From the NCBI RefSeq assembly GCF_037201975.1, contig NZ_CP147520.1:1612001-1676000 (forward strand): a stretch of 64,000 nucleotides of DNA, written 5' to 3'. The notes under the pieces are model-generated. The model was not told where the DNA came from. It did no database searches and saw only the letters and a list, made by a program, of their open reading frames with translations. Shown here piece by piece: positions 22,688 through 52,041 of this stretch (positions are counted from its first letter, which is position 1; each line of letters begins with the position of its first letter). The translations under genes were made by a program, and so were the position numbers. The stretch comes from Streptomyces sp. TG1A-60 (GTDB lineage: Bacteria > Actinomycetota > Actinomycetes > Streptomycetales > Streptomycetaceae).

Positions 22688-23866
22688 CTACGCCCAGCGA
22701 TTCCGCTTGGCCTCCATCGCCGCGCGCCCCTCGGCGTCCCTCCGTTTCCACTCCTTCCGGATCTCGGCCCGCATCCGGGCGTCGGACTGGGCCGCGATCC
22801 GCTGGTTCTCGCGGAGCAGCTTGCGGTAGCTGTCGAGCCGCCGCTCGGGCAGTTCACCGGACTCGACCGCGCCGAGGACCGCGCAGCCGGGCTCGGCGAT
22901 GTGCGCGCAGTCGTGGAAGCGGCAGTCCGCGGCCAGTTCCTCGATCTCGGCGAAGACCTGCCCGACCCCGCTCCCGGCGTCCCAGAGGCCGACGCCGCGC
23001 AGCCCGGGTGTGTCGATGAGGACTCCGCCGCCCGGCAGGGCGAGGAGGTTGCGGGTGGTGGTGGTGTGCCGTCCCTTGCCGTCCACGTCACGGATGGCCC
23101 GGACGTCCATGACGTCCTCGCCGAGCAGCGCGTTGGCGAGGGTCGACTTGCCGGCGCCGGACTGCCCGAGCAGCACGGAGGTGCCGCCGGAGAGCACCGC
23201 GGCGAGGACGTCGAGGCCCTCGTCGAGGGCGGAGCTGACCGTCAGCACGGCGATGCCGGGCGCGACGGTCTCCACGTCCTGCACCAGATGCCCCAGCGTG
23301 GCGGCGTCCGGCACGAGGTCGGCCTTGGTTAGCACGACCACGGGCCGCGCCCCGGACTCCCAGGAGGGTTCCGACTCGCGCAGCAGTGCATCACCTCTGG
23401 AGCAGGACATCGCGAGCGCGAGGAACCGCTCGATCCGCCCGAGGTCCAGTTCGACCGCGAGCGACACACAGATGACGACGTGGTCGATGTTGGAGGCCAG
23501 CACCTGGCCCTCGGAGCGCTTGGACGACGTCGACCGCACGAACGCAGCACGGCGCGGCAGGAGCGTGCGCACATACCGCGGATCGCTGCCTTCGGGGTCG
23601 ACGGCAGCCCAGTCCCCCGTGCACACGACGTTCATCGGGTCGCGGGGGACGACGAACTCGGTGTCGGCACGAACGGTACCGGCCGGGGTGATGACGTCGC
23701 ACCGGCCGCGGTCGACCCGGACGACACGGCCCGGCAGGAGTCCCTGCTCGGCATGTGGGGCGAACTCGGCCTCCCAGTCCGCATCCCACCCGTACGGCAC
23801 GAGCGGATGCGAAGAAGACGAGGACGAACCCGGGAGAGAAGAGAGAGACAAGGGGTGACCCTTCAC
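22688..23866 (-). CDS. rsgA: Ribosome small subunit-dependent GTPase RsgA
   Basis: The 392-residue protein has the circularly permuted GTPase order of RsgA/YjeQ: G4 (LTKADL, about 179), then G1 (GQSGAGKST, 234) and G3 (DTPGL, 285). The C-terminal zinc site uses Cys315, Cys320, His322 and Cys328. An OB-fold (about 45-105) precedes the G domain. It assists late 30S maturation. The GTG at 23866 gives a Ser-rich leader; a later start is possible. A small candidate gene with a strong ribosome site lies just upstream. Confidence 0.92.
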   Translation of the reverse strand: MKGHPLSLSSLPGSSSSSSHPLVPYGWDADWEAEFAPHAEQGLLPGRVVRVDRGRCDVITPAGTVRADTEFVVPRDPMNVVCTGDWAAVDPEGSDPRYVRTLLPRRAAFVRSTSSKRSEGQVLASNIDHVVICVSLAVELDLGRIERFLALAMSCSRGDALLRESEPSWESGARPVVVLTKADLVPDAATLGHLVQDVETVAPGIAVLTVSSALDEGLDVLAAVLSGGTSVLLGQSGAGKSTLANALLGEDVMDVRAIRDVDGKGRHTTTTRNLLALPGGGVLIDTPGLRGVGLWDAGSGVGQVFAEIEELAADCRFHDCAHIAEPGCAVLGAVESGELPERRLDSYRKLLRENQRIAAQSDARMRAEIRKEWKRRDAEGRAAMEAKRNRWA

Positions 23867-24321: not shown

Positions 24322-27300
24322 CTACGTGAGATCCAGCCTGGTGTGCACCAGCTGCGCGAAGTGGGTCAGGGTGCGGTCGCTGTTCATCAGCTCGGCGGTC
24401 GCCAGGCGGACGTCGAAGTGTTCGCCGGCGCGCACCATGAACTCGGTGCTCAGCAGCGAGTCGAGGCCGAAGTCGGTCACGGGCCGCGCTGGGTCCAGCT
24501 CCTCGGGATCGCTGTGCAGAACGGCGGCGAGCAGCCGGGTCAGGGTCTGGGTGATCGCGGCCCGGGCGTCGTCGGGTGTCATGGCGGCCAGTTCGCGCCG
24601 CAGCTCCGCCCGGCCTTCCGGGCTGGGGGCGGAGTCGGCCGGCACAAGTCCGGCGAAACGGGCGGCGGTCAGGGCGGGCAACAGGCGGCGGGCGCGGCCC
24701 CAGCGGTAGCGGCCGATGCCCGCCACGTCGGTGCCCGGCTGGAGCAGGCCGCCCGCGGTGGCGAGGGCCTCGGCGACGGTGAGGGGCTGGAAGCCCCGTT
24801 CGGCCATGGCATCGCCGATGGCGTGGCGGGCGACGTAGCCGGTCTCGCCGATCGGGCCGAAGGCGAGCGCGGTGGCCGGGCGTCCCTGGGCGTGGCGGGC
24901 GCGCGCCTGCGCCTCCAGGTAGGCGTTGCCGGCCGCGTAGGGGGCCTGGCCGACGTTGCCGACGGCGGTGGCGATCGAGGAGTAGGTGAGGAACAGGTCC
25001 AGGTCATGGTCCGCGGTGAGGCGGTGCAGTCGGGCCGCGCCGTCGGCCTTGGGGGCGAGGACGGCGGTGAACCGGTCGTCGGTGAGTTCGGCCAGGGGCG
25101 CGTCGTCGAGGTGCATCGCGGCGTGTACGACGCCGCGCAGCCGGTGCCCGGTGGCGTCGATCGCGTCGATGACCCGGCGCAGCGCCGCCCCGTCGGTGAC
25201 GTCGGCCGCGTAGGCGGTGGCGTGTACGCCGCGCCGGGCCAGGTCCTCCAGGAGGGCCGGCGCCTCGGGAGTGGCCTGGCCGCGGCGGGAGACCAGCGCC
25301 AGGTGCCGGGCCCCTTGGTCGGCCAGCCACCATGTGGTGGCGGCGCCGAAGCCGCTCAGTCCGCCGGTCACCAGGTAGGTGCCGTCGGCGTCCAGTGCGC
25401 GGGCGTGGGGTGCGGGCTGGACGGTGACGGGTTCGTCCAGCGGGTTCTCGTCGGCTTCGCTTCGGCCGCTGGCATCGACCCGGTCGTGGGCGTCGGCTTC
25501 GCCGAGCGAGACGACGACCTTGCCGATGTGCCGGGAGTGCTGCAGGACCTGGAAGGCCTCCTCCACCCGGGCGGCCGGGTAGACGGTGTGCGGCAGCGGC
25601 CGGTACACACCTCGCTCGATGAGTGACACGACATCGTCGAGCAGGCGGGAGCCGCGGCCCCGGTCCAGCACCACGTGGTCGAGGTTGAAGCCGATGAACG
25701 TCAGGCTGCGGTCGAAGGGACGCAGCGACAGCGGGTTGTTGAGAAAGATGTCGCGTTTGCCCAGTTCGATGAAGCGGCCGTTGGGGCGCAGCAGGTCCAG
25801 TCCGTGCGCGATCGCCTCGCCGCTGAGGGAGTTGACGACGACGTCGACGCCCCGGCCTTCGGTGAGTTCGCGGACCCGCGGTACGAAGTCCAGGCTGCGT
25901 GAGTCGAGCACGTGCCAGGCGCCGAGGCTGCGCAGCAGGTTCCGTTTGGTCTCGCTTCCGGCGGTGGCGATGACGCGGGCGCCCCGTGCGTGAGCGCACT
26001 GCAGGGCGGCCAGGCCCACCGCGCCGGCGCCGCCGTGCACGAGCACCGTCTCGCCGGAAGCCACGCGCGCCTGGTCGACCAAGGCGTGGTGGACCGTCAG
26101 GAAGGCGACGGGGAAGGTCGCCGCCTCGGCGTAGCTCATGCCGTCGGGGATCTTGATCAGGCCGTCGTCGTGGGCGACACCGTGGGAGGCGAGGGCCGCG
26201 GGAATGAGGCCGCAGACCCGGTCACCGATCGCGAGGTCACGCACTCCGGGTCCGACGGCGCGGACGATGCCGGCACCGTCCGTGCCCAGTCCGCGGCTGA
26301 GGGGGCTGTCCTCCACGGCTTCGGGCGGCAACAGGCCGTTGGCGCGCATGGGGTCGCGGTAGTTCAGCGCCACCGCGCGCATCTCGACGGCGACTTCACC
26401 GGGACCGGGCTGCGGGAGAGGTGTCTCCCGCCAGACCAGGCGCCGGGCGGGGCCGGGGTCGCGGGCGTCGAGGATGAAGGGCACGCCGGCGGGGACGGCG
26501 GGTGGCTCGTCGGCCGGGTGCTCGACGTGCAGGGGAGTGAAGCGGCCGGCCGGTGTGAGGACGACCTCGTCCTCGACGGCGCCCGCGTTCTCGTCCGCGG
26601 TGCGGCCCGCGGTGAGCAGCTCGGCGGCCAGGCGGCGGGCGTCGGCGGCCGGGTCCGCCGTGCGGTCGAGGGAGACGCGCCGCAGTCCCAGGCCGGGCTG
26701 TTCGTTGGCCAGGGTGCGAGCGGCGCCCCAGACGGCCGCGTCCTCGGGGTGCGTGGGGCGTTCCGGGGCGGGGAACAGGCCGGTGGGGCGTGTCACCAGC
26801 CACACCTGTGGGCCCCGGTCCTCGGGCGGAGTCCGGCAGGCGGCGGCGAGAGTGCGCAGGACGGCCGCGCGGTGCGTGGTCCGGGCCACGGGCTGCTGCG
26901 GGTCGGGCTCGGCCAGGAGCAGGACGATGTGCGGCGCGGCCTCGGCGGTCAGTGCCGCCGTCCATGCCTCGACGTCGGTGGCGGCGGGCAGGACCGTCGC
27001 CGGGCCCAGCAGTGCGGCCAGCTCCCGGGCGGTCGGGGTCTCGGCGTCGGTCTCCGTGGCGACGAGCCAGACCGCGTCCGGCGGTGGCGGGGGAAGGGCG
27101 GGCGTGTCCGCCGCTTCCCCGGGCGCGGCGGCGACCAGAACCGAGTGGTCGTCGGGCCCCGTCTGCCAGGGGCTGGTGAAGCCGCACCGCTCCAGCAGTG
27201 GCGTCCACTCGTCGCGGGGCAACAGCCGTGTGGTGGGACGCAGGGCCCGGTCACTGCGTTTCCACAGGGACTCCAGGCCGCCCAGCAGCAGGGCGTCGAG

Positions 27301-30300
27301 CCGATCGTTGTGCCGCTCGGTGGCCAGCAGGTGGCCGCCCGGGACGAGGAGCGAGCGTACGTGTCCCAGCGCGGCGGCCAGGTCGGCCGTGGCGTGCAGG
27401 GCGTCACCGGCGAGGACCAGGTCGAAGCCGCCCGGCGGGAAGCCCTGGACGGCGGGGTCGGCGTCCAGGTCGAGGGTGCGGTGGTCGACGAAGTGGCAGG
27501 CGGCGAAGCGGTGCCGGGCGTGGACGAAGGAGGCGTTGGAGGGGGCCGTGCAGGTGTAGTGGGTGCGGTCGGGCGGGAGCAGCGGGAGCGCGGCGGCGGT
27601 CAGGGCCGTGGTGGTCGCGCCCACTTCGAGGACGCGCAGCGGGCGGTCGGCGGGCCAGGCGCGGACGATCCGGTCGAGCAGCGCCTGCACCACCCGGTGG
27701 GTGAAGCGGTGAGCGGGCGCGGTCTCCTGCCACTGTTCGAGGAAGCTCTCGCCGACGGGCAGCAGGTCGCGCGGGTCGACGGAGCCGCGCAGCACCTCGG
27801 GCAGCTGCCGTAGCCGGCTGTTCATCAGTACCGCTGCCGGGCCGAAGCGGGGATGGTCCTCCAGCAGAGTCCGCAGAGCCGCCTCGGGGCTTGCGGTGAC
27901 GTCGAGCAGCCGCCAGGCCTCCCCGTCGGCCTCGGCCAGTCGCTGTTCGGCCAGCATGGGCAGCATCAGACGCACCAGCCTGCGGTGCCGCGGCGCGAGG
28001 CCCTGACCGACCAGGTCGGGCATGGTGAAGGGCTCGTCCGGGTGGGGCAGCAGGCCGCGCAGGGCGGCGGCCCAGCAGTGCGCGCCGGCCCGTTCGGCGG
28101 CAACCGTGAACCGTGCGTGACCGCTGTCGTCCAGTTCGGAGCGGGCGGCGGTGATGCGCGCCCGGGCGGCGTCCGCCACCTCGGCCGGTGCGGGCAGCGG
28201 GGACGGCGGGGCGGGCATCGTGGGGTGCGGGGCCGCGCGCAGGACGGTGCGCTGGACGGTCAGCGGGGCGTGGTCGGTGAGACGGACGCGTCGGGTGCGG
28301 CACTTCTCGATCTCGACGGTGACGGTGCCGTCGAGGTCCGCGTACGTGATGTCCCAGCAGATCTCGTTGGCGCTGCGACTGCGGCGCCGCAGGTGGACGA
28401 CGCCCTCCGACGCCGGGGTGCGCCACGCGCGTACCGTCCCGAAGGCCGAGGGCAGGTAGCCGGCGGCTTCCCGGGTCGGCTGGTCGGCCAGGGCGACGGT
28501 GGCCTGCAAGGGAGCGTCCAGCAGCACGGGGTGGACCGTGTGGGCGTCGGCCGGGTGCTCGAGCCCGTACCACGCGAGCAGTTCGCCCTCGCCGAGGTCC
28601 AGGCTCCGCAGGACCTGGAACGCCGGACCGAGCTGCACCCCGAGGCGGTGGCAGTGCTCGTAGTAGTCCGGGCCGGTGAGGGTGCGGGAGCAGCGGGCCT
28701 TGACCGCGCCGATGTCCAGTGGAGCGGGAGCGCTGCTCAGCCGGGTGCGCACCTGGGCGCGGACGACCGGCTGGATCTCGGCGCCCCGCGTGTCGCGTGT
28801 GCTGATGGTCAGCGTGCCGTCCGACGGGACCACCGCGGTCTGCAGCGCGGCTCCGGCCGGGTCCGGCCACTCGATCGAGAACGGGCGGGACAGGTCCAGA
28901 TGCCGCACCTCCACCGGGCGGCCCAGCGCCCGCTGCCCGGCCGTCAGGGCCATGTCCGCGTACGCGGCGGCGGGCATCAGGACGCTGCCGCCGATCCGGT
29001 GGTCGCCCAGCCAGGGCACGAGCTGCGGCTCGACGGTGCCGTGCCACAGAGGGTGGGGTGCGGGCAGGCGTTCGCCGAGCAGGGGGTGGTCCAGCACTCC
29101 GGTGCCGCTGGTGCGCACGACGAGATCGTGTGCGGTGCCGTGCCAGTGCCGGTCACGCTGCCAGGGGTAGCCGGGCAGGTCCGCGACCCGGCCGGGGTGC
29201 GGGAAGTGCGCCTGCCAGTCCACCTCGGCACCGGCCGCGAGCAGGGCGGCGACAGCGGCCGTGGCCTCGCGCGGCCCGTCCCCGTCCCGGCGCAGCGTCG
29301 GCACGTACGACAGGCCGGTACGGCGCAGGTAGGGGCGCAGGACCGGGTGCGGGCCGATCTCCACGACGATGCCGATGCCCTCCTCCGCGAGGTGCCCCAT
29401 GGCCTCGGCGAAACGGACCGGCTCGCGCACGTTGCGCCACCAGTACGCCGCGTCCAGTTCCCGTCCGGTCAGCGGGGCAGCCGTGACGGTGGAGACGAAC
29501 GGCACCCGTGCCTCGACGGGCGCCAGACCGGCGAGGGCGGCGGACAGGGGCTCCTTGATGGGGTCCATGGCGCGGCTGTGGAAGGCGTAGTCCAGATCCA
29601 GCTCGCGGAAGAAGACGTCGCGGGCGGTCAGTTCGGCACCGAGCGCGGCCAGCGCGTCGGGGTCGCCGGCCGCCGTGACGTCCCGGTCGCTGTTGATTCC
29701 GGCGATCTCCAACGCCCCGCCGAAGCGGGCCAGTTCCTCGCGTGCGGCGTCCTCGGCCAGGCCGACGGCGGCCATGCGTCCACGACCCGCCGTGGCGGCC
29801 TGGGTGCGGCTGCGGTGGGCGAGCACCAGCGCCGCCTGCTCCAGGGTCAGCGCTCCGGCCGTGTACGCGGCGGCCACCTCTCCGACGCTGTGCCCGGCGA
29901 CCGCACGCGGGCTCAGCCCCTGGGAGGCCAGCAGGGCGGTGAGGCCCACCTGGACGGCGAACAGCACCGGCTGGGCGATCTCCGTACGCGCCCAGCGTGC
30001 CGCGGTGGGACGCTCCAGCTCCTTGGCCACGGACCAGCCCAGATGCGGGGCCAGCGCGGCGTCCGCCTCCTCGACGGCGGCGCGGAGGACGGCCTCACTC
30101 GCCATCAGGTCGGCGGCCATTCCGGGCCACTGGGAGGCGTTGCCGGAGTAGACGAACGCCACGGCGCCCCGCCCGGCCTTGCGGGTCACGGCCCCGTGCG
30201 GCGGCGCGTCGGTGAACAGGCCCTCCAACCGGTCCGCCGCCTGCCGCGGACCGGCGGCCAGCACGGCGGCGCGGTGCGGGTGGGCGCCGCGCCGCAGCGT

Positions 30301-31749
30301 ACTGGTGCGGGCCAGGTCGTAGAACTCCTCCGGTGCCGCTTCGCGCAGCCGCTCGGCCATCCGCGCGCTCAACTGCTGGAGCGCCTTGGGCGACCGCGCG
30401 GAGACCACCACCGGCAGCGGCCTGTCCGTGTGCTCCGGTCCGGCCGGCATCGCAGGTGGCGGTACGACGATGGCGTGGGCGTTGGCGCCGCCGAAGCCGA
30501 AGGAGTTCACCCCGACCGCGGCCCGTTCCGAGCGGGGCAACTCCACAGGAGTCACGGTGGGTGCCAGACCGAGCGCGCCGAAGTCGATGGCGGGGTTGAG
30601 CGGCAGGGCGTGCAGGGACGCGGGCGCCATCCGGTGGCGGAGCACCAGGATCGCCTTCAGCAGGCCGGCCATGCCCGCCGCGGGCTCCAGGTGGCCCAGG
30701 TTGGACTTCACGGAGCCGACGGGCAGGGGGCCCGTGCCGCGCCGCGCCCCGATGGCCCGGCCGACGGCCCGGGCCTCGGCGGGGTCGCCGACCGGTGTGC
30801 CGGTGCCGTGCGCCTCGAAGTAGACCAGGTCGTCCGGCCCGATCCCGGCCTCCTGGCACACCGCGTGCAGCAGCGCCTCCTGGGCCTGTGAACTGGGCAG
30901 CGTCATGCCGGTCGTACGGCCGTCGGAGTTGCTGCCGGTGCCGGCGAGGACTGCGTGGATCCGGTCGCCGTCGGCCACCGCGTCCACCAGCCGCTTCAGC
31001 ACCAGCACCGCGCCGCCCTCGGCCCGCACGAAGCCGTCGGCGTCGGCGGAGAAGGTCGCGCACCGCCCGCGCCGCGACAGCATGCCCGCGTAGGAGAAAC
31101 CGGCGTACGAATACGGGTTCGCGAGCACGTTGACCCCGCCCGCCAGCGCCACGCGGCTGGTGCCCTCCCGCAGGGTGCGGCAGGCGCGGTCCAGTGCCAC
31201 CAGGGACGAGGAGCAGGCCGTGTCGATGGCCATGCTGGGGCCGCGCAGGTCGAAGGCGTACGACAGGCGGTTCGCCGCGATGGACAGGGTGGCGCCGGGC
31301 ATGGTGTGCGGGCTGGTGTGGTCCTCCATCAACGTCAGGACGGTGCCGTAGGCCGGGTCGGAGACCCCCACGTACACGCAGGTGTCGGACCCGGCGAGCG
31401 CCTCGGCCGGGACGGCGGCGTCGTCCAGCGCCTCGGCCGCCATCTCCAGCAGCAGCCGCTGCTGCGGATCGAGGTGGGCCGCTTCCTTGGGCGAGATACC
31501 GAAGTACGCGGCGTCGAAGGACGCGATGTCGTCGAGGAAGCCCCCGGCGGCGGTGTAGCTGCGGCCCGGGCGAACCGCTCCCGGATCGACGAACCGTTCC
31601 TTGGGAAACCGGTCCGGCGGCATCTCCCCGACGAGGTCACGCCCCTCCCGCAGGGCTGCCCACAACCCGTCCAGGTCGGTGATCCCGCCCGGCAGCCGGC
31701 AGCCCACGCCCACCACCGCCACTGACCGGTCGTCCCGTCCCTCAGCCAT
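24322..31749 (-). CDS. Single-module highly reducing type I polyketide synthase (KS-AT-DH-cMT-like-ER-KR-ACP)
   Basis: From the ATG at 31749 (MAEGRDDRSVAVVGVGCRLP) the protein is 2475 residues. KS spans 8-430 (Cys179 in DTACS, His314, His353). AT spans 532-810 (Ser621 in GHSVGE; YAFH at 721, a mixed malonyl/methylmalonyl signature). DH starts near 888 (His917, Asp1078). A methyltransferase-like region covers about 1210-1545, but its SAM loop reads LEVGATTTALT instead of a glycine-rich motif and is probably inactive. ER covers 1755-2083 (NADPH loop HGGAGAVGLA), KR 2120-2300 (Ser, Tyr2271, Asn2275), and ACP about 2395-2470 (Ser2431 in DFGLDSL). There is no loading domain, docking domain or thioesterase. 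A lone fully reducing module suggests iterative use, like fungal HR-PKS or animal FAS. It is divergent from oleABCD. Confidence 0.95.
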   Translation of the reverse strand: MAEGRDDRSVAVVGVGCRLPGGITDLDGLWAALREGRDLVGEMPPDRFPKERFVDPGAVRPGRSYTAAGGFLDDIASFDAAYFGISPKEAAHLDPQQRLLLEMAAEALDDAAVPAEALAGSDTCVYVGVSDPAYGTVLTLMEDHTSPHTMPGATLSIAANRLSYAFDLRGPSMAIDTACSSSLVALDRACRTLREGTSRVALAGGVNVLANPYSYAGFSYAGMLSRRGRCATFSADADGFVRAEGGAVLVLKRLVDAVADGDRIHAVLAGTGSNSDGRTTGMTLPSSQAQEALLHAVCQEAGIGPDDLVYFEAHGTGTPVGDPAEARAVGRAIGARRGTGPLPVGSVKSNLGHLEPAAGMAGLLKAILVLRHRMAPASLHALPLNPAIDFGALGLAPTVTPVELPRSERAAVGVNSFGFGGANAHAIVVPPPAMPAGPEHTDRPLPVVVSARSPKALQQLSARMAERLREAAPEEFYDLARTSTLRRGAHPHRAAVLAAGPRQAADRLEGLFTDAPPHGAVTRKAGRGAVAFVYSGNASQWPGMAADLMASEAVLRAAVEEADAALAPHLGWSVAKELERPTAARWARTEIAQPVLFAVQVGLTALLASQGLSPRAVAGHSVGEVAAAYTAGALTLEQAALVLAHRSRTQAATAGRGRMAAVGLAEDAAREELARFGGALEIAGINSDRDVTAAGDPDALAALGAELTARDVFFRELDLDYAFHSRAMDPIKEPLSAALAGLAPVEARVPFVSTVTAAPLTGRELDAAYWWRNVREPVRFAEAMGHLAEEGIGIVVEIGPHPVLRPYLRRTGLSYVPTLRRDGDGPREATAAVAALLAAGAEVDWQAHFPHPGRVADLPGYPWQRDRHWHGTAHDLVVRTSGTGVLDHPLLGERLPAPHPLWHGTVEPQLVPWLGDHRIGGSVLMPAAAYADMALTAGQRALGRPVEVRHLDLSRPFSIEWPDPAGAALQTAVVPSDGTLTISTRDTRGAEIQPVVRAQVRTRLSSAPAPLDIGAVKARCSRTLTGPDYYEHCHRLGVQLGPAFQVLRSLDLGEGELLAWYGLEHPADAHTVHPVLLDAPLQATVALADQPTREAAGYLPSAFGTVRAWRTPASEGVVHLRRRSRSANEICWDITYADLDGTVTVEIEKCRTRRVRLTDHAPLTVQRTVLRAAPHPTMPAPPSPLPAPAEVADAARARITAARSELDDSGHARFTVAAERAGAHCWAAALRGLLPHPDEPFTMPDLVGQGLAPRHRRLVRLMLPMLAEQRLAEADGEAWRLLDVTASPEAALRTLLEDHPRFGPAAVLMNSRLRQLPEVLRGSVDPRDLLPVGESFLEQWQETAPAHRFTHRVVQALLDRIVRAWPADRPLRVLEVGATTTALTAAALPLLPPDRTHYTCTAPSNASFVHARHRFAACHFVDHRTLDLDADPAVQGFPPGGFDLVLAGDALHATADLAAALGHVRSLLVPGGHLLATERHNDRLDALLLGGLESLWKRSDRALRPTTRLLPRDEWTPLLERCGFTSPWQTGPDDHSVLVAAAPGEAADTPALPPPPPDAVWLVATETDAETPTARELAALLGPATVLPAATDVEAWTAALTAEAAPHIVLLLAEPDPQQPVARTTHRAAVLRTLAAACRTPPEDRGPQVWLVTRPTGLFPAPERPTHPEDAAVWGAARTLANEQPGLGLRRVSLDRTADPAADARRLAAELLTAGRTADENAGAVEDEVVLTPAGRFTPLHVEHPADEPPAVPAGVPFILDARDPGPARRLVWRETPLPQPGPGEVAVEMRAVALNYRDPMRANGLLPPEAVEDSPLSRGLGTDGAGIVRAVGPGVRDLAIGDRVCGLIPAALASHGVAHDDGLIKIPDGMSYAEAATFPVAFLTVHHALVDQARVASGETVLVHGGAGAVGLAALQCAHARGARVIATAGSETKRNLLRSLGAWHVLDSRSLDFVPRVRELTEGRGVDVVVNSLSGEAIAHGLDLLRPNGRFIELGKRDIFLNNPLSLRPFDRSLTFIGFNLDHVVLDRGRGSRLLDDVVSLIERGVYRPLPHTVYPAARVEEAFQVLQHSRHIGKVVVSLGEADAHDRVDASGRSEADENPLDEPVTVQPAPHARALDADGTYLVTGGLSGFGAATTWWLADQGARHLALVSRRGQATPEAPALLEDLARRGVHATAYAADVTDGAALRRVIDAIDATGHRLRGVVHAAMHLDDAPLAELTDDRFTAVLAPKADGAARLHRLTADHDLDLFLTYSSIATAVGNVGQAPYAAGNAYLEAQARARHAQGRPATALAFGPIGETGYVARHAIGDAMAERGFQPLTVAEALATAGGLLQPGTDVAGIGRYRWGRARRLLPALTAARFAGLVPADSAPSPEGRAELRRELAAMTPDDARAAITQTLTRLLAAVLHSDPEELDPARPVTDFGLDSLLSTEFMVRAGEHFDVRLATAELMNSDRTLTHFAQLVHTRLDLT

Positions 31750-31821
31750 TGAACCTGCCCCCCTGCTTGTCCGGTTCGAGTGGAAGGACACTGCCCAGAC
31801 GGCCCGGCGGCCAAGGTCCCT

Positions 31822-31861
31822 TTCACCCATCGGAGTGGCCTTTGCCCCACAAACGGGTGAA
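31822..31861. promoter_or_regulatory. Inverted repeat in the PKS/oleA divergent promoter region
   Basis: TTCACCC (31822-31828) and GGGTGAA (31855-31861) are perfect 7-base inverted arms 26 bases apart, inside the only 152 bases separating the divergent PKS and oleA starts. This position suits an operator controlling both directions. No regulator gene is intact nearby; a TetR remnant lies at the far end of the cluster. Confidence 0.4.
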
Positions 31862-31901
31862 CTGGGGTCCACGGTGCGTGACCGGCCGCTACGGTGACGC
31901 G

Positions 31902-32930
31902 GTGCTCGAAGCCCCGCGTGCCCGCTTGACAGCAACCGCCGTCCACCTGCCGTCCCGCTACCGGACCATGGAGGAGATCCGGGCCCAGATCGCCGCCGCC
32001 GGAAGTCCCTACGTACCGCCGCCCGGCCTGCTCGAGGACATCACCGGCGTGCGCGGCGTGCACACCAGCGAGGAGGGGGAGTGCGCCTCGGATCTCGCGG
32101 CCTCGGCCGCCCGCAAGGCTCTCGCGGACGCGGGCGTGACCATCGGTGAGGTGGACCTGCTGCTGTTCGCCGCCACCAGCCAGGACATGATCGAACCGTC
32201 GACCTCGCACCTCGTGGCCGTCAAACTCGGCGCCACCTGCCCGGTGTTCGACGTGACGAACGCCTGCAACAGCGTCCTCAACGCGATGGAGGTGGCCGGC
32301 GCGTTCATCGCGACCCGCCGGTACCGCACGGTGCTCATCGCCTGCGGCGAGGTGGGATCCATGGTCACGCGCTGGCACGTTCCCGACCAGGAGGCCCTGC
32401 TGCGGGCCATGCCCGGCTACACCGTCTCCGACGCCGGCGCCGCCATGCTGCTCACCGCCGGGCCCGCCGGGGACTGCGACCCCGGAGTACTCACGCTGCG
32501 GTTCGCCGCGGACTCCACCGCCTGGAACGCCTGCACCGTGAGCGGTGGCGGCTCCATGCACCCGCGGGCGTTCGACGACGAGCACCTGACCATCCGGCTG
32601 AACGGCGACCTGCTGCGTACGACCGCGGTCGAGGGCCTGCCGTTCCTCCAGCGGGCAGCGGAACGGGAGTTGGACGCGGTCCGCTCCAGCGCCTTCATCG
32701 CCTTCCACCAGATCGGCATGGCCCACTACCAGGAGATGGTCGACATGCTCCCCCTGCCCGCCGACCGGTGCATGCCCGCCGTGGCCGAGCACGGCAACTG
32801 CGCCGCGGCCTCCCTGCCCCTGCAACTGGTCAAGGCACAGGAGGCCGACCGCATCGAGCCGGGCGACACCGTGGCGATGCTCGGCCTGGCCAGCGGCATG
32901 AGCTTCGGCCTGGCGCTGGTCCGCTGGTGA
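31902..32930 (+). CDS. oleA: OleA-type thiolase (head-to-head acyl condensation)
   Basis: A GTG at 31902 gives 342 residues, the normal OleA length; an in-frame GTG at 31878 is an alternative. The KAS III-like fold retains Cys122 (NACNSV), His269 (FHQIG) and Asn299 (HGNC). Crucially it also has Glu98 in IEPSTSHL, equivalent to the OleA-specific glutamate that deprotonates the second substrate. OleA joins two acyl chains to a 2-alkyl-3-ketoalkanoic acid. It is the first gene of a coupled oleABCD run and divergent from the PKS. I infer that one or both acyl groups come from the PKS. Confidence 0.88.
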   Translation: MLEAPRARLTATAVHLPSRYRTMEEIRAQIAAAGSPYVPPPGLLEDITGVRGVHTSEEGECASDLAASAARKALADAGVTIGEVDLLLFAATSQDMIEPSTSHLVAVKLGATCPVFDVTNACNSVLNAMEVAGAFIATRRYRTVLIACGEVGSMVTRWHVPDQEALLRAMPGYTVSDAGAAMLLTAGPAGDCDPGVLTLRFAADSTAWNACTVSGGGSMHPRAFDDEHLTIRLNGDLLRTTAVEGLPFLQRAAERELDAVRSSAFIAFHQIGMAHYQEMVDMLPLPADRCMPAVAEHGNCAAASLPLQLVKAQEADRIEPGDTVAMLGLASGMSFGLALVRW

Positions 32931-33871
32931 CCGCCTCGAACCGGCGCACACCCGCCGCCACCCGCGCTTCCGTCCTCCAACAGCTCCTGCCCGGCTACCC
33001 CGCTCGCGAGCACTGGCGGCTCGTGCCGGCTACCGGCCAGCACTATCTCGACGTCGGCTCGGGCGAACCGCTGCTGTTCCTGCACGGGAACCCGACCTGG
33101 AGCTACGCCTGGCGCAAGCTGCTCCCCACACTGGCCCCGCACGCACGCTGCCTGGCCCCGGACCTGCCCGGCCTCGGTCTGTCCCAGCCCGTGGAACCGC
33201 CGTCCGACCCGAGGGCCCGCTACCTGCACCAACTGGACCACCTGGACGCCCTCTACCACCACCTGGTCCGCAACGAGGGGGTACCGCCGAGCGGTTGGAC
33301 GTTCGCCGTGCACGACTGGGGCGGCCCGCTCGGCGTCGCCTGGCTCCTGCGCAACCCCGGCGTCGTCTCCCGTCTGGTGGTCCTCAACACCATCGCCTTC
33401 CCCTGGCCCGACGGCTACCGGCTGCCGTTCTACCTGCGCTGGATCAGGGACCACCGGCCGGTGGCCGCCACCGTCCACGCCACCAACGCCTTCGCCCGGG
33501 CCACCGTCCGCCTCGGCGTCACCCACCGGCTCAGCTCCGCCGAGCGGCGCGCCTACCTGCTGCCCCATGCCCGCCGGGGCAACCGCCGGACGATCACGGA
33601 GTTCGTCCGGGCCATCCCCCGGAACCCCGCCGACGAGGCCTGGCGCCTGCTCACACCGCCTGACGGGGACGACTGCCTCGGACGGCTGCCGATGCTCATC
33701 GGCTGGGGCATGCGGGATCCGGTCTTCACGCCGCTGATCCTCGCCGAGTGGACCCGCCGCCACCCGCACGCCGTCGTCCACCGCTATCCGCGCGCCGGCC
33801 ACCTGGTGATGGATGACGCCGGGGACGAACTCGGCGCCCACATCCGCGACTTCCTGCGAGGGCAGCGATGA
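32927..33871 (+). CDS. oleB: OleB-type alpha/beta hydrolase (beta-lactone decarboxylase)
   Basis: The GTG at 32927 overlaps the oleA stop (GTGA). The 314-residue product is a haloalkane dehalogenase-like hydrolase with the oxyanion segment FLHGNPTWS (about 51), nucleophile Asp130 in VHDWGG, and a late histidine in RAGHLV. OleB uses this aspartate to open the beta-lactone and release CO2, leaving a cis alkene. The intact nucleophile argues for an alkene rather than a beta-lactone end product, but membership of the hydrolase superfamily alone would not prove this. The ole context does most of the work. Confidence 0.85.
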   Translation: MTASNRRTPAATRASVLQQLLPGYPAREHWRLVPATGQHYLDVGSGEPLLFLHGNPTWSYAWRKLLPTLAPHARCLAPDLPGLGLSQPVEPPSDPRARYLHQLDHLDALYHHLVRNEGVPPSGWTFAVHDWGGPLGVAWLLRNPGVVSRLVVLNTIAFPWPDGYRLPFYLRWIRDHRPVAATVHATNAFARATVRLGVTHRLSSAERRAYLLPHARRGNRRTITEFVRAIPRNPADEAWRLLTPPDGDDCLGRLPMLIGWGMRDPVFTPLILAEWTRRHPHAVVHRYPRAGHLVMDDAGDELGAHIRDFLRGQR

Positions 33872-35469
33872 CCGCCGCACCCGACGGCATCTTCACCCGC
33901 CTGGCCGGGCTGACCGAGCACGCCCCGGCCACCGTACTCGTACGCTGCACCGGCGCCGTGTCCGCACGGGACGTGACGGCGGCACAGCTGCTGGACGGCT
34001 GCCGCCGCACCGCCGACGACCTCCGTGCCGCCGGAGTGCGGCGCGGCGACAAGGCCGTGGTGATGACGCGGGACGCCTACCAACTCGTCGCGGCCGTCTA
34101 CGCGCTGACGTCGCTCGGTGCCGTCCCCGTGCTGATCGAGCCGCGCGCGGAGGTGCGTCGCTGCCTGGACGAGATCGCCCCCGGCGTCTTCGTCGGGGAG
34201 CCGCTGGCCCATGTGGCGCGCCGGGCGCTGGGCTGGGGTCGCGGCCATGTCCGTGCGGCCCTGGTGACCGGCCGCGCCTTCCCCGGCCGGCACCAACTCC
34301 TGGGGCGAAGCCTGCCGTTGGCGGTTCCGGACGGCAGGGGCCCGGCGCCGCGCGTCCCGGAATGGCGGCCCGAGGACCTGGCGATGATCGCCTTCACCTC
34401 CGGCTCCACCGGGCAGCCCAAGGGCGTGGAGTACCGCTACACCACCCTGGCCGGACAGCTCACCACCCTGGACGCCGTGCTCCACCCCCGCGCCGGCGAC
34501 GTCCTGCTCTCCTGCTTCCTGCCGTTCGCCGCACTGGGCCCGCTGCTCGGCCTCACGACCGTCGCCCCGCAGGTGGACCACCTGGCCCCGGCCCGCACAC
34601 CGCCCGGCCACCTCGTCGGCCCTCTCCTGCGCCACCGGGCGAACATCGTCCTCGGCTCACCGGCGGTCCTCGGCCTGATCGCGGGCCACTGCTCCCGCCA
34701 CGGCCTGACGCTGCCCTCGGTCCGCCGCGTGCTGTCCTTCGGCGCGCCGCTGCGCCCGCGGCTCGCCGAGGCCCTGGCCAAGGCGCTGCCGGCCGAGGCG
34801 GAGATCCTCAGTGTCTACGGCGCCACCGAGTGCCTGCCCGCCGCCGCCATCGACGCCGACGAACTGCGCTCGCTGCGCGTCCAGCCGCCCCCGGGCCACT
34901 CGGGCACCTGCCTGGGCCGGCCCCTGACCGGCGTCGGGGCACGCGTCCTGGACGCGGACGACACCGGCCTGGGGGAGATCGCCGTCGCGGGACCCGTGGT
35001 CAGCCCGGCCTACCACGCCCGCCCCGACGCCACGGCCGCGGCCAAGACGGTCACCGACGGCACACTGTGGCACCGCACCGGCGACCTGGGACGCCTCGAC
35101 GACGAAGGCCGCCTCTGGTACCTCGGCCGCCAGGCCCACCTCGTCACCGGCGAAGGCTTCACCCTCACCACCGAGGACGTCGAGGCCGCGGCCGACACCG
35201 CCCGGGGCGTCCGCCGCACGGCCCTGGTCGGCGTCGGCCCCGCCGGACGGCAGCGGGCGGTGCTCTGTGTCGAGCCCGAGCGCGGCGCACGCCGGGACGC
35301 GGTCCTGGACGCGCTGCGCGCCGCCCTCGGCGGCCACCGGCACGGCCGCCGCATCGACACCGTGCTGTTCCACCCGCGGTTGCCGACCGACATCCGCCAC
35401 AACTCCAAGACCGACCGTGCCCGGCTCGCCGCCCACGCCGCCAAGTACGTGACAGGAGGCCCGCGTTGA
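33868..35469 (+). CDS. oleC: OleC-type ATP-dependent beta-lactone synthetase
   Basis: The 533-residue adenylate-forming enzyme overlaps oleB by ATGA. It shows the P-loop FTSGSTGQPKGVE (176-188), the YGATECLP motif (about 312), HRTGDLGRLDDEGRLWYLGR (about 392), and the C-terminal segment IRHNSKTDRARL with the RHNSK pattern I associate with OleC. It activates a 2-alkyl-3-hydroxyalkanoic acid with ATP and closes the beta-lactone. Generic fatty acyl-CoA ligases share the fold, but the neighbours are the rest of the pathway. Confidence 0.87.
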   Translation: MTAAPDGIFTRLAGLTEHAPATVLVRCTGAVSARDVTAAQLLDGCRRTADDLRAAGVRRGDKAVVMTRDAYQLVAAVYALTSLGAVPVLIEPRAEVRRCLDEIAPGVFVGEPLAHVARRALGWGRGHVRAALVTGRAFPGRHQLLGRSLPLAVPDGRGPAPRVPEWRPEDLAMIAFTSGSTGQPKGVEYRYTTLAGQLTTLDAVLHPRAGDVLLSCFLPFAALGPLLGLTTVAPQVDHLAPARTPPGHLVGPLLRHRANIVLGSPAVLGLIAGHCSRHGLTLPSVRRVLSFGAPLRPRLAEALAKALPAEAEILSVYGATECLPAAAIDADELRSLRVQPPPGHSGTCLGRPLTGVGARVLDADDTGLGEIAVAGPVVSPAYHARPDATAAAKTVTDGTLWHRTGDLGRLDDEGRLWYLGRQAHLVTGEGFTLTTEDVEAAADTARGVRRTALVGVGPAGRQRAVLCVEPERGARRDAVLDALRAALGGHRHGRRIDTVLFHPRLPTDIRHNSKTDRARLAAHAAKYVTGGPR

Positions 35470-36446
35470 GGGTCCTGGTGACGGGCGGGAGCGGGTTCCT
35501 CGGGCAGGAGATCTGCCGCCGGCTCGTCGCACGCGGCACCACCGTCTCCTCCCTCGGCCGCCGGCCGAGCCTCGCCCTGGAGAACCTCGGCGTCCGGCAG
35601 CACCTGGGGGACCTCGCCGATCCGGCCGCCGTCTCCCGTGCGCTCGCCGGCTGCGACGCCGTCATCCACAACGCCGCCCTCGCCGGCGTCAGCGGCCCGC
35701 TCACGCCGTACTGGAGAACCAACGTCCTCGGCACCCGCAACGTCATCGACCAGTGCCGTGCCCACGGGGTCGGCACCCTCGTCCACACCTCCACCGCGAG
35801 TGTCGTCTTCCGGCCCGGCGGCCTGGAGAACGCCGACGAGCGCTGCCCCTACCCCCGCCGGCACCTGGCCGCCTACCCCCGCACCAAGGCCCGCGCGGAA
35901 GCCCTCGTCATGGCCGCCGACAGCCCCGGCCTGGCCACCGTCTCCCTGCGCCCCCACGTCATCTGGGGCCCCGGCGACCCGCACTTCGCCCCGGCCCTGG
36001 TACGCGCCGTGCGCGCGGACCGGATGGTGATGCCCGGCGACGGCACGAACCTCGTCGACACCACCCACCTGCACACCGCCGCCCACGCCCACCTGCTGGC
36101 CCTGGACCGACTCCGGGAGGGCCGGCCCATCGGGGGCCGCGCCTACTTCATCACCCAGGACGACCCCCGCCCCCTGCGCGAGATCACCGCCCGCTTCCTG
36201 CACGCGGCGGGCCTGCGGGCCACGTGGTGCGCCATCCCGCGCCCGCTGGCCCACGCCGCCGCGACGACCTGCGAGACGGTCCTACGACTGACCGGCCTCA
36301 CCCGCACCCACACGCTCAGCCGCTTCCTCGTCGCCGAGCTGGTGCGGCCCCACTGGTTCAACATCGAAGCCGCCCGCCGTGACCTGCTGTTCAAGCCACC
36401 GATCACCTTCGACGAAGGCATCACCGCGCTGTCGGCCGCGCGTTGA
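35466..36446 (+). CDS. oleD: OleD-type NAD(P)-dependent 2-alkyl-3-ketoacid reductase
   Basis: A TTG start at 35466 overlaps the oleC stop (TTGA) and follows an AGGAGG site at good distance. The 326-residue extended SDR protein has the nucleotide loop VTGGSGFLG (5-13) and catalytic Tyr137 and Lys141 (YPRTK). It belongs to the 3-beta-hydroxysteroid dehydrogenase-like group that includes OleD. It reduces the OleA product before OleC acts. The rare TTG start and tight overlap imply translation coupled to oleC. Confidence 0.87.
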   Translation: MRVLVTGGSGFLGQEICRRLVARGTTVSSLGRRPSLALENLGVRQHLGDLADPAAVSRALAGCDAVIHNAALAGVSGPLTPYWRTNVLGTRNVIDQCRAHGVGTLVHTSTASVVFRPGGLENADERCPYPRRHLAAYPRTKARAEALVMAADSPGLATVSLRPHVIWGPGDPHFAPALVRAVRADRMVMPGDGTNLVDTTHLHTAAHAHLLALDRLREGRPIGGRAYFITQDDPRPLREITARFLHAAGLRATWCAIPRPLAHAAATTCETVLRLTGLTRTHTLSRFLVAELVRPHWFNIEAARRDLLFKPPITFDEGITALSAAR

Positions 36447-36909: not shown

Positions 36910-38415
36910 TCAGTCCTCGTGGTCGCAGTCGCGCCCGTTGAGCGTGAACTCCTCGGGGACGGGGTTGTCGTAGCCCTGCCAGGTGCCGAGGAGGCCGACC
37001 CCGAAGGTGCCGCCCTCGGGGACGGTCTTGTTGTAGTCGGCGGCGGAGGCGGTGATCTCGGCCCCGTCCTGGTCGAAGGTGCCGTCCCACATCTGGGTCA
37101 CGCGCTGGTCGTGCGCGTAGGTCCAGCCGATGCGCCAGCCGTCGAGTGCCTTCGTGGAGGTGACGGTGACGGCGGCCTGGAAGCCGCCGGGCCATTCGTT
37201 GACGATCTCGTAGCGGACGTGGCAGGTGGCGGACGACTTGCCGTGATCGACCGGCTCGTGGGAGGCGCGGGCGGGCGTCGAGGAGTCGCCCTGGGGCTCC
37301 TCGTTGCTGTTGCCGCCGCCCTTGTCGTCGTCGGAGCCGGGCTCCTCGGGCCGGGAGGTGCTCTGCAACTCGGACGATCCGCCGACCGGGGGCTGTGCCA
37401 CCGGGAAGCGCGGGGCCTGCCGCACCACCGACGACTCGCCCGTGGACGCGCCGTCGGCGACGGTCTCGTCGTCACCGAAGGGCATCAGGGAGACGACGAA
37501 CGCCAGTACGGAGACGAGGCCGGCGCCGGCGAGCAGGCCGTTGCGGCCCAGCCGGGGCCTCGGCTCCCTGCCCGGCGAGAATCCCCGGTCGGTGCCGGTG
37601 GAGTCCGCGCGCCCGGGGAGAAGTCCCGCGTCGGCCGCGCGGCGGCGGCGCTCCAGGTAGGCGTGTCCGCCCCAGCCGATCACGCCGCCGGCGAGCGCTG
37701 CGGGCAGGCCGCCGCCGTGCAGGCCGAGACAGGCCGCGGCCTCGGCGCACTCCACGCAGGTGGCGAGGTGCCGCGACAGGTCGTCGGGGGTGTCGGTGCC
37801 GGGTGAGCGGGTGACCGCGTCCAGCAGCCGTGCGTAGCTGCGGCAGTCGGTGTGCAGGGGCGTGTCGAGCTGGTTGCGGTGACAGCGGTCCCGGAACAGC
37901 GCCCGCACCTGGTCGAGTTCGGCCCTGACGACCGCCGGGTCGTGGCCGAGCCGACGGGCCACCGAGGTCAGGGGCAGCGACTCGACCTCGATCAGCCAGA
38001 GCAGAGCCGCGTCGGGTTCCTGCATGTCCCGCAGTGCGCGCAGGGCGAGGGGGCGGTGCAGTGGCGGGCCGACATAGCGCGCGGCCTTGTCGGAGTTGAG
38101 CCAGAGGCGCAGGTCGGGGTCGAGGCGGTGGCCCTTCCCGTCCGCCTCCCAGGACGCGGCACTGGTTCTGACCCACGTCAGGAGGAACGGTATTCGGGGC
38201 AGCCGTAAGGCGCGCCGTCCGGCGCCGCGCTCGGCCCCCGCGTCGAGTTCCAGGGCGCGCGACTCGTGCATGCCGTTGGTGAAGGCCTCGGTGGCCAGTT
38301 GGGCCGCCGCGGCCGAGCCGGACGTACACAGGTCGGCGTACGAAAGGACCGCGTCCCAGCACTCCGAGAACAGCGCGGCCTCGGCGGCGTCCTGGGGTTT
38401 CGGCAGGTCGGGCAT
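36910..38415 (-). CDS. ECF sigma-like/zinc anti-sigma/transmembrane/CBM2 fusion protein
   Basis: The ATG at 38415, with AGGAGA five bases before, gives 501 residues. Residues about 10-210 resemble an ECF sigma factor: a region 2-like helix set and a region 4 HTH (LTSVARRLGHDPAVVRAELD). Then comes HLATCVEC, an HX3CX2C zinc anti-sigma motif (about 238). One membrane helix follows (LLAGAGLVSVLAFVVSLMPFG, about 312-332), then a disordered linker, and a C-terminal CBM2 cellulose-binding domain (about 400-501, terminal cysteine pair, exposed Trp). This matches the ECF52-like arrangement known in actinomycetes. It may sense plant polysaccharide outside and release or retain the sigma part inside. 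Confidence 0.85.
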   Translation of the reverse strand: MPDLPKPQDAAEAALFSECWDAVLSYADLCTSGSAAAAQLATEAFTNGMHESRALELDAGAERGAGRRALRLPRIPFLLTWVRTSAASWEADGKGHRLDPDLRLWLNSDKAARYVGPPLHRPLALRALRDMQEPDAALLWLIEVESLPLTSVARRLGHDPAVVRAELDQVRALFRDRCHRNQLDTPLHTDCRSYARLLDAVTRSPGTDTPDDLSRHLATCVECAEAAACLGLHGGGLPAALAGGVIGWGGHAYLERRRRAADAGLLPGRADSTGTDRGFSPGREPRPRLGRNGLLAGAGLVSVLAFVVSLMPFGDDETVADGASTGESSVVRQAPRFPVAQPPVGGSSELQSTSRPEEPGSDDDKGGGNSNEEPQGDSSTPARASHEPVDHGKSSATCHVRYEIVNEWPGGFQAAVTVTSTKALDGWRIGWTYAHDQRVTQMWDGTFDQDGAEITASAADYNKTVPEGGTFGVGLLGTWQGYDNPVPEEFTLNGRDCDHED

Positions 38416-38643
38416 GGGTCTCCTGCATCCAACAAAGCGAGGGGGAAGTGCGCAAAAGCGGTCAAATCCCCTCTGAATCAGGGGAGTTGATGGGGCCACC
38501 TTGCGGCTGCCCCAGAGCTTTTCACGCTTCCAACACAACTGACAAGCCGCGCCTTCAAATGCGGTTACCAGGGGTCACACAGTCCGGGGGTCACTGTCGA
38601 GTGGTACGTACGCCGGGCCCGATCGTCTCAACCGCCACAGGAG

Positions 38644-50721: not shown

Positions 50722-52041
50722 ATGAGAAGACTTCTCGGCGCACTCGCGGCCGGCGCACTCGCCGTCACCGGCCTCGCCACCACCGGCTCGACGCCCGCGG
50801 CGGCGGCCACCAGCGGCACCTTCAACGTGCTGACGTACAACGTCGCCGGCCTCCCGGAAGGGCTGAGCTCCGGCAGTCCGGCGACGAACACCCCGCTGAT
50901 ATCGCCGCGCCTCGGCGCGTACGACATCGTCAACGTGCAGGAGGACTTCAACTACCACGCGGCGCTGTACGCGGGCGACGACCACCCCCACCGCACGGCG
51001 ACCAGCGGTGGTGTGCCCTTCGGCGACGGCCTCAACACGCTGTCGGACCTCGCGTTCGAGGACTTCGAGCGGGTGAAGTGGAACAACTGCACCGGCACCA
51101 ACTGCCTCACCCCCAAGGGCTTCTCGCTGGCCCGGGTCCGGCTCGACGAGGGCGCCTTCGTCGACCTCTACAACGTGCACACCAACGCCGACGCCACCGA
51201 CGACGCGCTCGCCGCCCGCCGGGCCAACGTCGAGCAGCTCTCGGACTTCATCCAGGCGAACTCGGCGGGCAACGCGGTGATCGTCATGGGCGACACCAAC
51301 ACCCGCTACACGCGCACCGGCGACAACATCCGTACCCTTCTCGCCGAGAACGGCCTCACGGACCCGTGGGTGCGGCTGGTCAAGGGCGGCACACCCCCGG
51401 CACCGGGCAGCGACGCGCTGGTCTGCCCGACGACCGCCCCGACCAACGACTGCGAGGTCGTCGACAAGGTCCTCTACCGGGACAGTGACGTGGTGAACCT
51501 GACCGCCACCCGCTACCACAACGAGTGGGCGAAGTTCCTCGACCCGGCGGGCGGCAACCTCTCCGACCACTTCCCGCACACCGTCGACTTCTCCTGGACC
51601 CTCAACTCCAAGCTCCGGGCCAGCGACTTCTTCGGCGGCCCGCACGGCACCGCGTACAACGACGCGGACGACCTCCCGGCGACGGTCTCACCGCGCACCC
51701 TGACCCTGCGCGGCGGCTCCCGCCTCGACGCGGTCTCGCTCACGCACGACGGCGGTACGACGCTGGCCCACGGCGGCACGGGTGGCACGGCGGCCTCCCT
51801 CACCCTGGCCTCCGGTGAACACCTCACCTCCGTGAAGCTGACCCAGGGCCAGAAGAACGGCCGCACCCGGATCTTCTCCGCCGCCTTCGGCACCGACAAG
51901 GGCCGTATGCTGACCGCCGGCACGGCCACCACCGCCACGAAGACCTTCACCGCCCCCACCGGCTGGCAGATCGTCGGCTTCACCGGCCGCTCGGGCACCG
52001 AGATCGACAAGCTGGGCGTGCTGTACGCGCCGATCGGCTGA
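50722..52041 (+). CDS. Secreted endonuclease/exonuclease/phosphatase-family enzyme with jacalin-like domain
   Basis: The 439-residue protein has a Sec signal peptide (MRRLLGALAAGALAV to about residue 30). The EEP domain follows: FNVLTYNVAGLP, VQED, VIVMGDTNTRY and a terminal SDHFPHTVDF provide the metal-binding Asn, Glu, Asp, Asn and Asp-His set. A C-terminal domain (about 310-439) looks like a jacalin-type lectin with repeated LTLRGGSRLDAVSL strands. The family includes sphingomyelinases, nucleases and phosphatases; the substrate is unknown. Its role among glycanases is unclear. Confidence 0.85.
   Translation: MRRLLGALAAGALAVTGLATTGSTPAAAATSGTFNVLTYNVAGLPEGLSSGSPATNTPLISPRLGAYDIVNVQEDFNYHAALYAGDDHPHRTATSGGVPFGDGLNTLSDLAFEDFERVKWNNCTGTNCLTPKGFSLARVRLDEGAFVDLYNVHTNADATDDALAARRANVEQLSDFIQANSAGNAVIVMGDTNTRYTRTGDNIRTLLAENGLTDPWVRLVKGGTPPAPGSDALVCPTTAPTNDCEVVDKVLYRDSDVVNLTATRYHNEWAKFLDPAGGNLSDHFPHTVDFSWTLNSKLRASDFFGGPHGTAYNDADDLPATVSPRTLTLRGGSRLDAVSLTHDGGTTLAHGGTGGTAASLTLASGEHLTSVKLTQGQKNGRTRIFSAAFGTDKGRMLTAGTATTATKTFTAPTGWQIVGFTGRSGTEIDKLGVLYAPIG

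Follow-up and report, generated by a model that had tools for sequence, protein, structure and literature searches.

How does a reducing polyketide synthase (PKS) without a release domain part with its chain when the adjoining genes encode enzymes of olefin synthesis? The question is posed by a locus of Streptomyces sp. TG1A-60, whose genome is one contig of 7.83 Mb and from which we analyzed a stretch of 64,000 nucleotides (nt), positions 1,612,001-1,676,000, here called the window and used for all coordinates below. A pks gene lies there divergently from oleA, oleB, oleC and oleD, in which each neighboring pair overlaps by 4 nt. A preliminary description made from the sequence had reported a 2475-residue PKS, 152 bases and four overlapping ole genes, and our coordinates and frames agree with it. 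We consider it likely that the five genes form one unit in which the PKS builds a chain, OleA releases it by head-to-head condensation and OleD, OleC and OleB convert the product to a long internal alkene. The pairing of PKS and OleA is a real, conserved system, and apparently an undescribed one.

24322..31749, minus strand: pks, single-module type I PKS, KS-AT-DH-(degenerate C-MeT)-ER-KR-ACP, 2475 residues
31750..31901, no strand: divergent intergenic region of 152 nt, common to pks and oleA
31902..32930, plus strand: oleA, predicted head-to-head condensing thiolase, 342 residues, E98/C122/H269/N299
32927..33871, plus strand: oleB, predicted beta-lactone decarboxylase of haloalkane dehalogenase fold, 314 residues, HGNPTW, HDWGG, GMRD and AGH motifs
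33868..35469, plus strand: oleC, predicted beta-lactone synthetase (AMP-forming), 533 residues, from profile matches and motifs
35466..36446, plus strand: oleD, predicted 2-alkyl-3-oxoalkanoate reductase, 326 residues, Y137/K141

Pairing of the PKS with OleA in two families

Among 392 genomes sampled from the genus, 33 contain an OleA at E ≤ 1e-60, with identities of 61-100% in 19 and of at most 52% in 14. All 19 genomes with an OleA of at least 61% identity, that of the window included, carry this PKS divergently adjoining oleA (the window; L037-L047, L049; L195, L198, L202, L205; L254, L277). The estimated gap between the two genes is 142-247 nt (22 loci, three of them from extra named strains). 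Because pks adjoins oleA in every sampled genome with a close oleA, the PKS likely supplies the chain that the Ole enzymes join.

The remainder of the unit is more variable. OleC was found at E ≤ 1e-60 in 29 of the 392 genomes, and examination of all 28 loci besides the window revealed the same divergent five-gene unit in 12 (L037-L047, L049); it is also present in the named species Streptomyces coeruleorubidus, S. olindensis, S. lomondensis, S. muensis and S. bluensis, the first three being the closest named relatives for this locus. The unit is split over contigs in G338, and in G241, G219 and G258 the PKS and OleA are divergent but oleBCD are rearranged or located elsewhere, the distance from PKS and oleA to oleDBC exceeding 40 kb in G258. 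In G213 (L051), over 20 kb separate the pair of PKS and oleA from an independent oleBACD operon, which is accompanied by a FabF-like KS and no such PKS, and G006 has the pair with no OleC at E ≤ 1e-60 in its genome. Beyond OleA, the G006 locus (L277 601-9421) encodes a LuxR-type regulator and a PETase-like hydrolase. At L054 (G219:C19), one OleD lies between two OleB-like genes next to the C-terminal end of the PKS, and the OleC proteins of L054, G241 and G258 are without the P-loop pattern that was searched for. Four OleC loci (L048, L050, L052 and L053) have no such PKS and a FabF-like KS instead, with an ACP found by search in three, and seven more (L058-L064) are lipstatin-like.

A second instance of the pairing emerged from a class-wide search, in which OleC was detected at E ≤ 1e-55 in 21 of 394 genomes. 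In five genomes of another actinobacterial family (f17; L226, L228, L230, L232, L234) a PKS of the same kind lies head-to-tail upstream of oleA-oleC-oleD-oleB, and the KS identity of these PKSs is 66-68%. Searching 200 genomes of f17 with that family's OleA gave a match at E ≤ 1e-50 in 64. Every OleA copy at least 69% identical to the query (13 of 13) has the C-terminus of this PKS directly upstream on the same strand and oleC downstream, as viewed within 1.5-kb flanks. Four copies are 55-57% identical; at the three with loci, OleA is upstream of a PKS in two and a discrete KS is present in the third. The PKS was seen in none of the 14 loci examined for more distant f17 OleAs.

Recurrence in the genus and in the second family rejects a chance neighborhood of PKS and ole genes. 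The preliminary description had proposed a search for co-occurrence and had held that OleA releases the PKS chain; the pairing proves to be kept for all close OleAs in both searches (19/19 and 13/13), and this adjacency lends good support to the idea of one pathway with a presumed hand-off to OleA. A larger conserved cluster was rejected, as none of nine other genomes shares a further flank gene with the window (flanks of about 15 kb, crude gene caller).

Some relatives carry additional carrier and condensing genes. An ACP-KS pair follows oleD in G131, G160, G334 and G223 (Pfam was run on the G131 pair), and a discrete ACP and FabF-like KS follow oleD in L040, L044, L045 and L049 (Pfam on the L184 = L044 pair; also L048). 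L041 has fragments of both at a contig end and L057 the ACP alone; no ACP-KS pair is present in the window's flanks. Where it occurs, this arrangement points to a second, dedicated acyl chain. Several related ole clusters have a discrete ACP and KS in place of the PKS. In the window's own genome but far from the cluster, G000:C1:2612812-2614014 encodes a KS 57% identical to the FabF-like KS after oleD in G131.

The proteins and their proposed reaction

Pfam assigns the PKS the domain order KS-AT-DH-MT-ER-KR-ACP:

30610..31728, minus strand: KS domain; DTACSS, EAHGTGT and NLGHLE intact
29239..30156, minus strand: AT domain; GHSVGE, and YAFH specificity motif
28282..29088, minus strand: DH domain; HRIGGSVLMP and DAPLQ present
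27130..27879, minus strand: C-methyltransferase (C-MeT) region, CurJ-like; S-adenosylmethionine (SAM) motif degenerate
25510..26406, minus strand: ER domain; HGGAGAVG intact
24847..25383, minus strand: KR domain; GGLSGFG, with Ser/Tyr/Asn motif intact
24349..24549, minus strand: ACP domain; FGLDSL

We take the YAFH motif to denote malonyl-like specificity. No thioesterase or other release domain is detected in the PKS by Pfam, and the protein stops directly after the ACP. Its best-scoring solved relative is mycocerosic acid synthase (MAS; 9d2y, E 9e-276), and the traits of a MAS-like stand-alone enzyme are all present, namely one module, a full reductive set, and neither a thioesterase nor a nearby partner module. 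The 20 open reading frames scanned between 12959 and 52041 hold no PKS domains, and the next KS match elsewhere in the genome (E ≤ 1e-20) is about 186 kb distant. Iterative use is likely, given that the PKS has no partner module, terminates just past its ACP and has MAS as its top-scoring solved relative. As one polypeptide with one ACP and a score of 269 bits on the PfaA model (cut-off 1010), it falls outside the Pfa, or polyunsaturated fatty acid, synthases. The pks frame extends upstream to 31935 (2537 residues possible), and the ATG at 31749 is retained in six relatives aligned.

The residues listed in the preliminary description were all located when counted on the translations (OleA E98/C122/H269/N299, OleB D130, OleD Y137/K141). 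OleA is composed of thiolase-fold halves by Pfam, and its four residues align with those of X. campestris OleA; the Glu with which head-to-head enzymes deprotonate the bound chain is found in every PKS-paired OleA aligned (21/21 and 5/5) but in none of the seven FabH-like paralogues of this genome. OleB is an alpha/beta hydrolase in which D130 aligns with haloalkane dehalogenases and which carries the dehalogenase-fold motifs (Asp nucleophile, His, acid, Asn and Trp). OleC is an AMP-binding protein with the AMP-binding motifs and C-terminal Lys, and OleD, a 3beta-HSD protein, has the Tyr/Lys and GGxGFLG of short-chain dehydrogenases.

In the mechanism that we propose, the stand-alone and likely iterative PKS would assemble an acyl chain on the ACP that it carries. 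OleA would take this chain off by condensing it head to head with a second acyl thioester, which may be a further PKS product or a fatty acyl thioester of the host. Reduction by OleD, lactonization by OleC and decarboxylation by OleB would follow and yield a long internal alkene. We infer a hand-off to OleA from ACP, not CoA, and an alkene as the end product.

The divergence of OleA parallels that of the KS nearly as well as does the divergence of the AT, another PKS domain. Pairwise distances correlate with r = 0.919 between KS and OleA (n = 22 loci) and with r = 0.941 between KS and AT of the same protein (n = 21), and the values for KS against OleB, OleC and OleD are 0.836 (18), 0.814 (17) and 0.790 (17); in 2000 permutations no value as high was obtained for any of the five. 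Several points weigh against this mechanism, beginning with the correlations themselves, which are not controlled for species descent and can be produced by shared descent alone. The identity limits of 61% and 69% were placed at gaps in the match lists, not beforehand, and the genomes represent only part of the genus and family. At ≤52% identity, OleA is accompanied by other partners: such a PKS was not seen beside 13 of these 14 (flanks as fetched, shorter at contig ends), the flank of the last, in G082, being seen in part. Conversely, one PKS copy of the paired branch (G219:C213) has no adjoining OleA. S. natalensis (L100) has oleC-oleD of this clade without oleB or PKS within 10 kb upstream, and OleA was not found in its genome (E ≤ 1e-30); its oleC-oleD look like a remnant. 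The head-to-head Glu also occurs in unpaired OleA-like groups, thus marking enzyme type and not pairing. Profile scores fall below the NCBIfam curated cut-offs: OleA reaches 146 bits against 285 (a naming threshold and not a trait) on its nearest model, PRK09258, an OleA-type model, and is at best a divergent member; OleC reaches 382 against 900 on the Ole model NF045786, its best model being the general PRK09274 (399 against 478); and OleD reaches 345 against 580 on NF042422, its best-scoring model. An alkene by this route is unlikely in G006, because the PKS-OleA pair occurs there without OleC.

G006 also lends weight to a different end product. (Papers are cited by PMC number and, unless stated otherwise, for excerpts of their text.) OleA and the PKS could share one pathway that ends in a ketone, a beta-keto acid derivative or a beta-lactone instead of an alkene; G006, which keeps the pair with no OleC at the threshold given, would be left with a beta-keto acid or ketone, and the known oleACD systems that yield beta-lactones are without oleB (PMC7064751). 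For the window we think such an outcome unlikely: here and in close relatives OleB keeps its nucleophile, acid and histidine motifs, and the four ole genes overlap as an operon. The preliminary description had left the choice between alkenes and beta-lactones open; the alkene is now favored, and the beta-lactone is the less likely of the two because OleB retains its catalytic motifs.

The PKS and ole genes might instead be neighbors for regulation only, the PKS making a separate lipid and OleA drawing acyl-CoA from primary metabolism. Canonical OleA does accept acyl-CoA (PMC7064751), but three gene orders in two families keep PKS and OleA together even where oleBCD are elsewhere, and the unbroken pairing of close OleA copies in both families (19/19 and 13/13) makes this explanation improbable. 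That OleA acts first, as a FabH-like enzyme making a starter chain that primes the PKS, would suit its poorly separated profile scores (146 bits on PRK09258 and 138 on the KAS III subfamily model) and the PKS with OleA alone in G006, but is very improbable given the head-to-head Glu in all 26 paired OleAs aligned and in none of the seven FabH-like paralogues, the succession of oleB, oleC and oleD after oleA in one operon, and a PKS with no other release function of its own.

The methyltransferase domain and the origins of the pairing

The preliminary description credited the PKS with all reductive domains, which is borne out for DH, ER and KR, and overlooked a C-MeT domain that follows DH and precedes ER. 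Among solved proteins, the CurJ C-MeT scores best with this domain (5thy, E 7.4e-37). The SAM glycine motif, GAGTGG in CurJ and in unpaired relatives, reads GATTTA in the window, where an acidic residue beyond the next strand has also been lost, so that the SAM-binding features of an active domain are missing; the His and Glu that we take to be the catalytic dyad are retained. We infer that the domain does not methylate in this species and that the chain would hence be unbranched; an active C-MeT with methyl-branched chains is disfavored here by the degenerate motif.

The motif departs from GAGTGG in 15 of the 19 paired PKSs of the genus (in G311 by one residue) and is intact in four (G353, G367, G213 and G006). 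PKSs of this family without OleA are common, and GAGTGG is intact in 12 of 13 further members not known as paired, the one departure being found in G219, whose second copy is similar to the paired branch. The unpaired status of the 12 is based on a genome-wide OleA search: ten of their genomes are without OleA at E ≤ 1e-60, G191 has a more distant OleA on a different contig, and the OleA of G213 is paired with its other PKS. The motif is likewise intact in five of five second-family PKSs. From this distribution, methylation was probably lost in one lineage after pairing, and an active C-MeT is possible where the motif is intact, in the four genomes named and the second family.

A 100/99 branch of the PKS tree divides the Streptomyces paired set, together with the G006 PKS, from the second family, which falls among unpaired PKSs. 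An OleA tree of 76 rows (quick method, SH-aLRT, no bootstrap) places unpaired OleAs closer to the Streptomyces set than are those of the second family; it comprises an earlier, smaller tree plus 21 rows, with one dropped. That smaller tree had joined both paired sets (98/92). A single common origin of all PKS-OleA pairs, which this grouping would imply, fits less well with the larger OleA tree and the PKS tree; as judged from the trees, two independent pairings are the simpler reading, though not a proven one. PKS-paired OleAs lie far from those of Micrococcales in the trees. A broader scenario, for which we would put the case at about even, is that Actinobacteria coupled a MAS-like iterative PKS to a dedicated off-loading enzyme of OleA type at least twice, giving a class of polyketide-derived internal olefins with arms programmed by the synthase instead of taken from membrane fatty acids, and that the main Streptomyces line then lost alpha-methylation. 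Such a loss would fit, because an alpha-methyl group on the carbon deprotonated by OleA would hinder formation of the beta-lactone and alkene.

Known systems and neighboring features

MAS and Pks2-type iterative PKSs share with the window a single fully reducing module. MAS has this domain set without a C-MeT, extends with methylmalonyl units and relies on an acyltransferase for chain release in trans; we know of no Ole partner for PKSs of this type. The clusters L058-L064, presumably of lipstatin type, have OleC and OleD homologues and OleA-like thiolases in common with the window but differ in that their loci contain no oleB match and their OleC is 34-38% identical; four of them include one OleA-like protein without Cys, His and Asn.

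The Pfa synthase of Shewanella is multi-subunit, with a chain-length factor and several ACPs. Its counterpart in the window is a single MAS-like cis-AT polypeptide that has one ACP and a degenerate C-MeT and is encoded divergently from oleA, and the host belongs to the Actinobacteria. The logic of the two is the same: in Shewanella PfaABCDE and OleABCD, which give a 31:9 hydrocarbon, an iterative synthase of PKS or fatty acid synthase type supplies the chain, OleA is thought to take it from ACP and OleBCD finish. Co-occurrence of a Pfa-like synthase with ole genes was described in 2011 (PMC3098273), and co-expression of Shewanella OleA with the Pfa synthase in E. coli gave the expected ketone, a result that its authors read as pointing to acyl-ACP as the substrate in vivo (PMC6463001). 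The statement in the preliminary description that known Ole systems use acyl-CoA from primary metabolism does not hold generally, since this synthase feeds OleA (PMC6463001).

Release of PKS chains by an OleA-type enzyme thus has precedent in its logic, and a further parallel is found in the myxopyronin and corallopyronin enzymes MxnB and CorB, stand-alone ketosynthases of thiolase fold that free carrier-bound PKS chains by condensing two (PMC5724707, PMC4578411); MxnB does so at a rate 12-fold above that with N-acetylcysteamine (NAC) thioesters (PMC5724707). They differ in lacking the OleA Glu and in forming alpha-pyrones from beta-keto chains of multimodular PKSs, and no OleBCD step is described in the excerpts of these papers. 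The canonical oleABCD and oleA-oleBC systems of Xanthomonas and Micrococcales agree with the window in all four activities and in the catalytic residues. Micrococcales have a fusion of OleB and OleC, which the window encodes as two proteins, and the excerpted text of PMC7064751 and PMC6463001 describes no dedicated synthase for the canonical systems. OleA gene contexts were surveyed in 2020 (PMC7064751), and the main text of a survey of Gram-positive olefin genes (PMC7158056) is without the words polyketide or Streptomyces. Searches of open-access full text found no report of a single-polypeptide iterative PKS beside oleABCD, and the excerpts of PMC3098273 and PMC7064751 likewise contain no such PKS next to oleA.

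If the proposed pathway is true, it adds a new ending for a reducing PKS, in which chains are joined head to head with removal of CO2 and without hydrolysis or cyclization, and Actinobacteria could make olefins independently of membrane fatty acids. With its five genes, the unit is compact and small enough for transfer to a laboratory host that would make defined hydrocarbons, and the strict pairing makes the use of ACP-bound chains by OleA in Actinobacteria directly testable.

Other ole-related arrangements were observed along the way. A different ole cluster is present at L048 6061-16164 (G190) and at L101-L103 (Streptomyces sp. CCM_MD2014, S. olivaceus and S. sp. A108), with the order OleA, a ligase-like protein (27% to OleC), ACP, two FA_desaturase_2 proteins, oleB-oleC-oleD, ACP and a FabF-like KS; it looks like a ligase, ACP and desaturase loading line for OleA. 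L284 (6264-12254), L283, L285 and L286 encode an OleA (49-51% identical), an ACP and a FabF-like KS in a row, and no oleBCD match is present in the fetched flank; the neighbors of L284, the only one scanned, include an MMPL transporter and an AurF-like oxygenase. L278-L282 combine OleA and a ligase-like gene with homologues of OleC and OleD that are distant, and a scan of L278 added P450s and a glycosyltransferase; these loci resemble the Actinoplanes atraurantiacus context in an excerpt of PMC7064751.

The region shared by pks and oleA contains paired half-sites 26 nt apart:

31822-31828, shared intergenic region: half-site TTCACCC
31855-31861, shared intergenic region: half-site GGGTGAA

The pair occurs in seven of 22 intergenic regions, every one in the window's own subclade, and this restriction rejects a deeply conserved operator. 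The right half-site, GGGTGAA in the window, reads GAGTGAA or GAGTGAT in the remaining six, and a nearly invariant stretch lies directly before and across the oleA start (7 strains aligned). The genes flanking the unit are apparently unrelated, an RsgA GTPase (22688-23866) and a CBM2 protein (36910-38538). Elsewhere in the window, 50722-52041 encodes a predicted protein with endonuclease/exonuclease/phosphatase and jacalin-like lectin domains.

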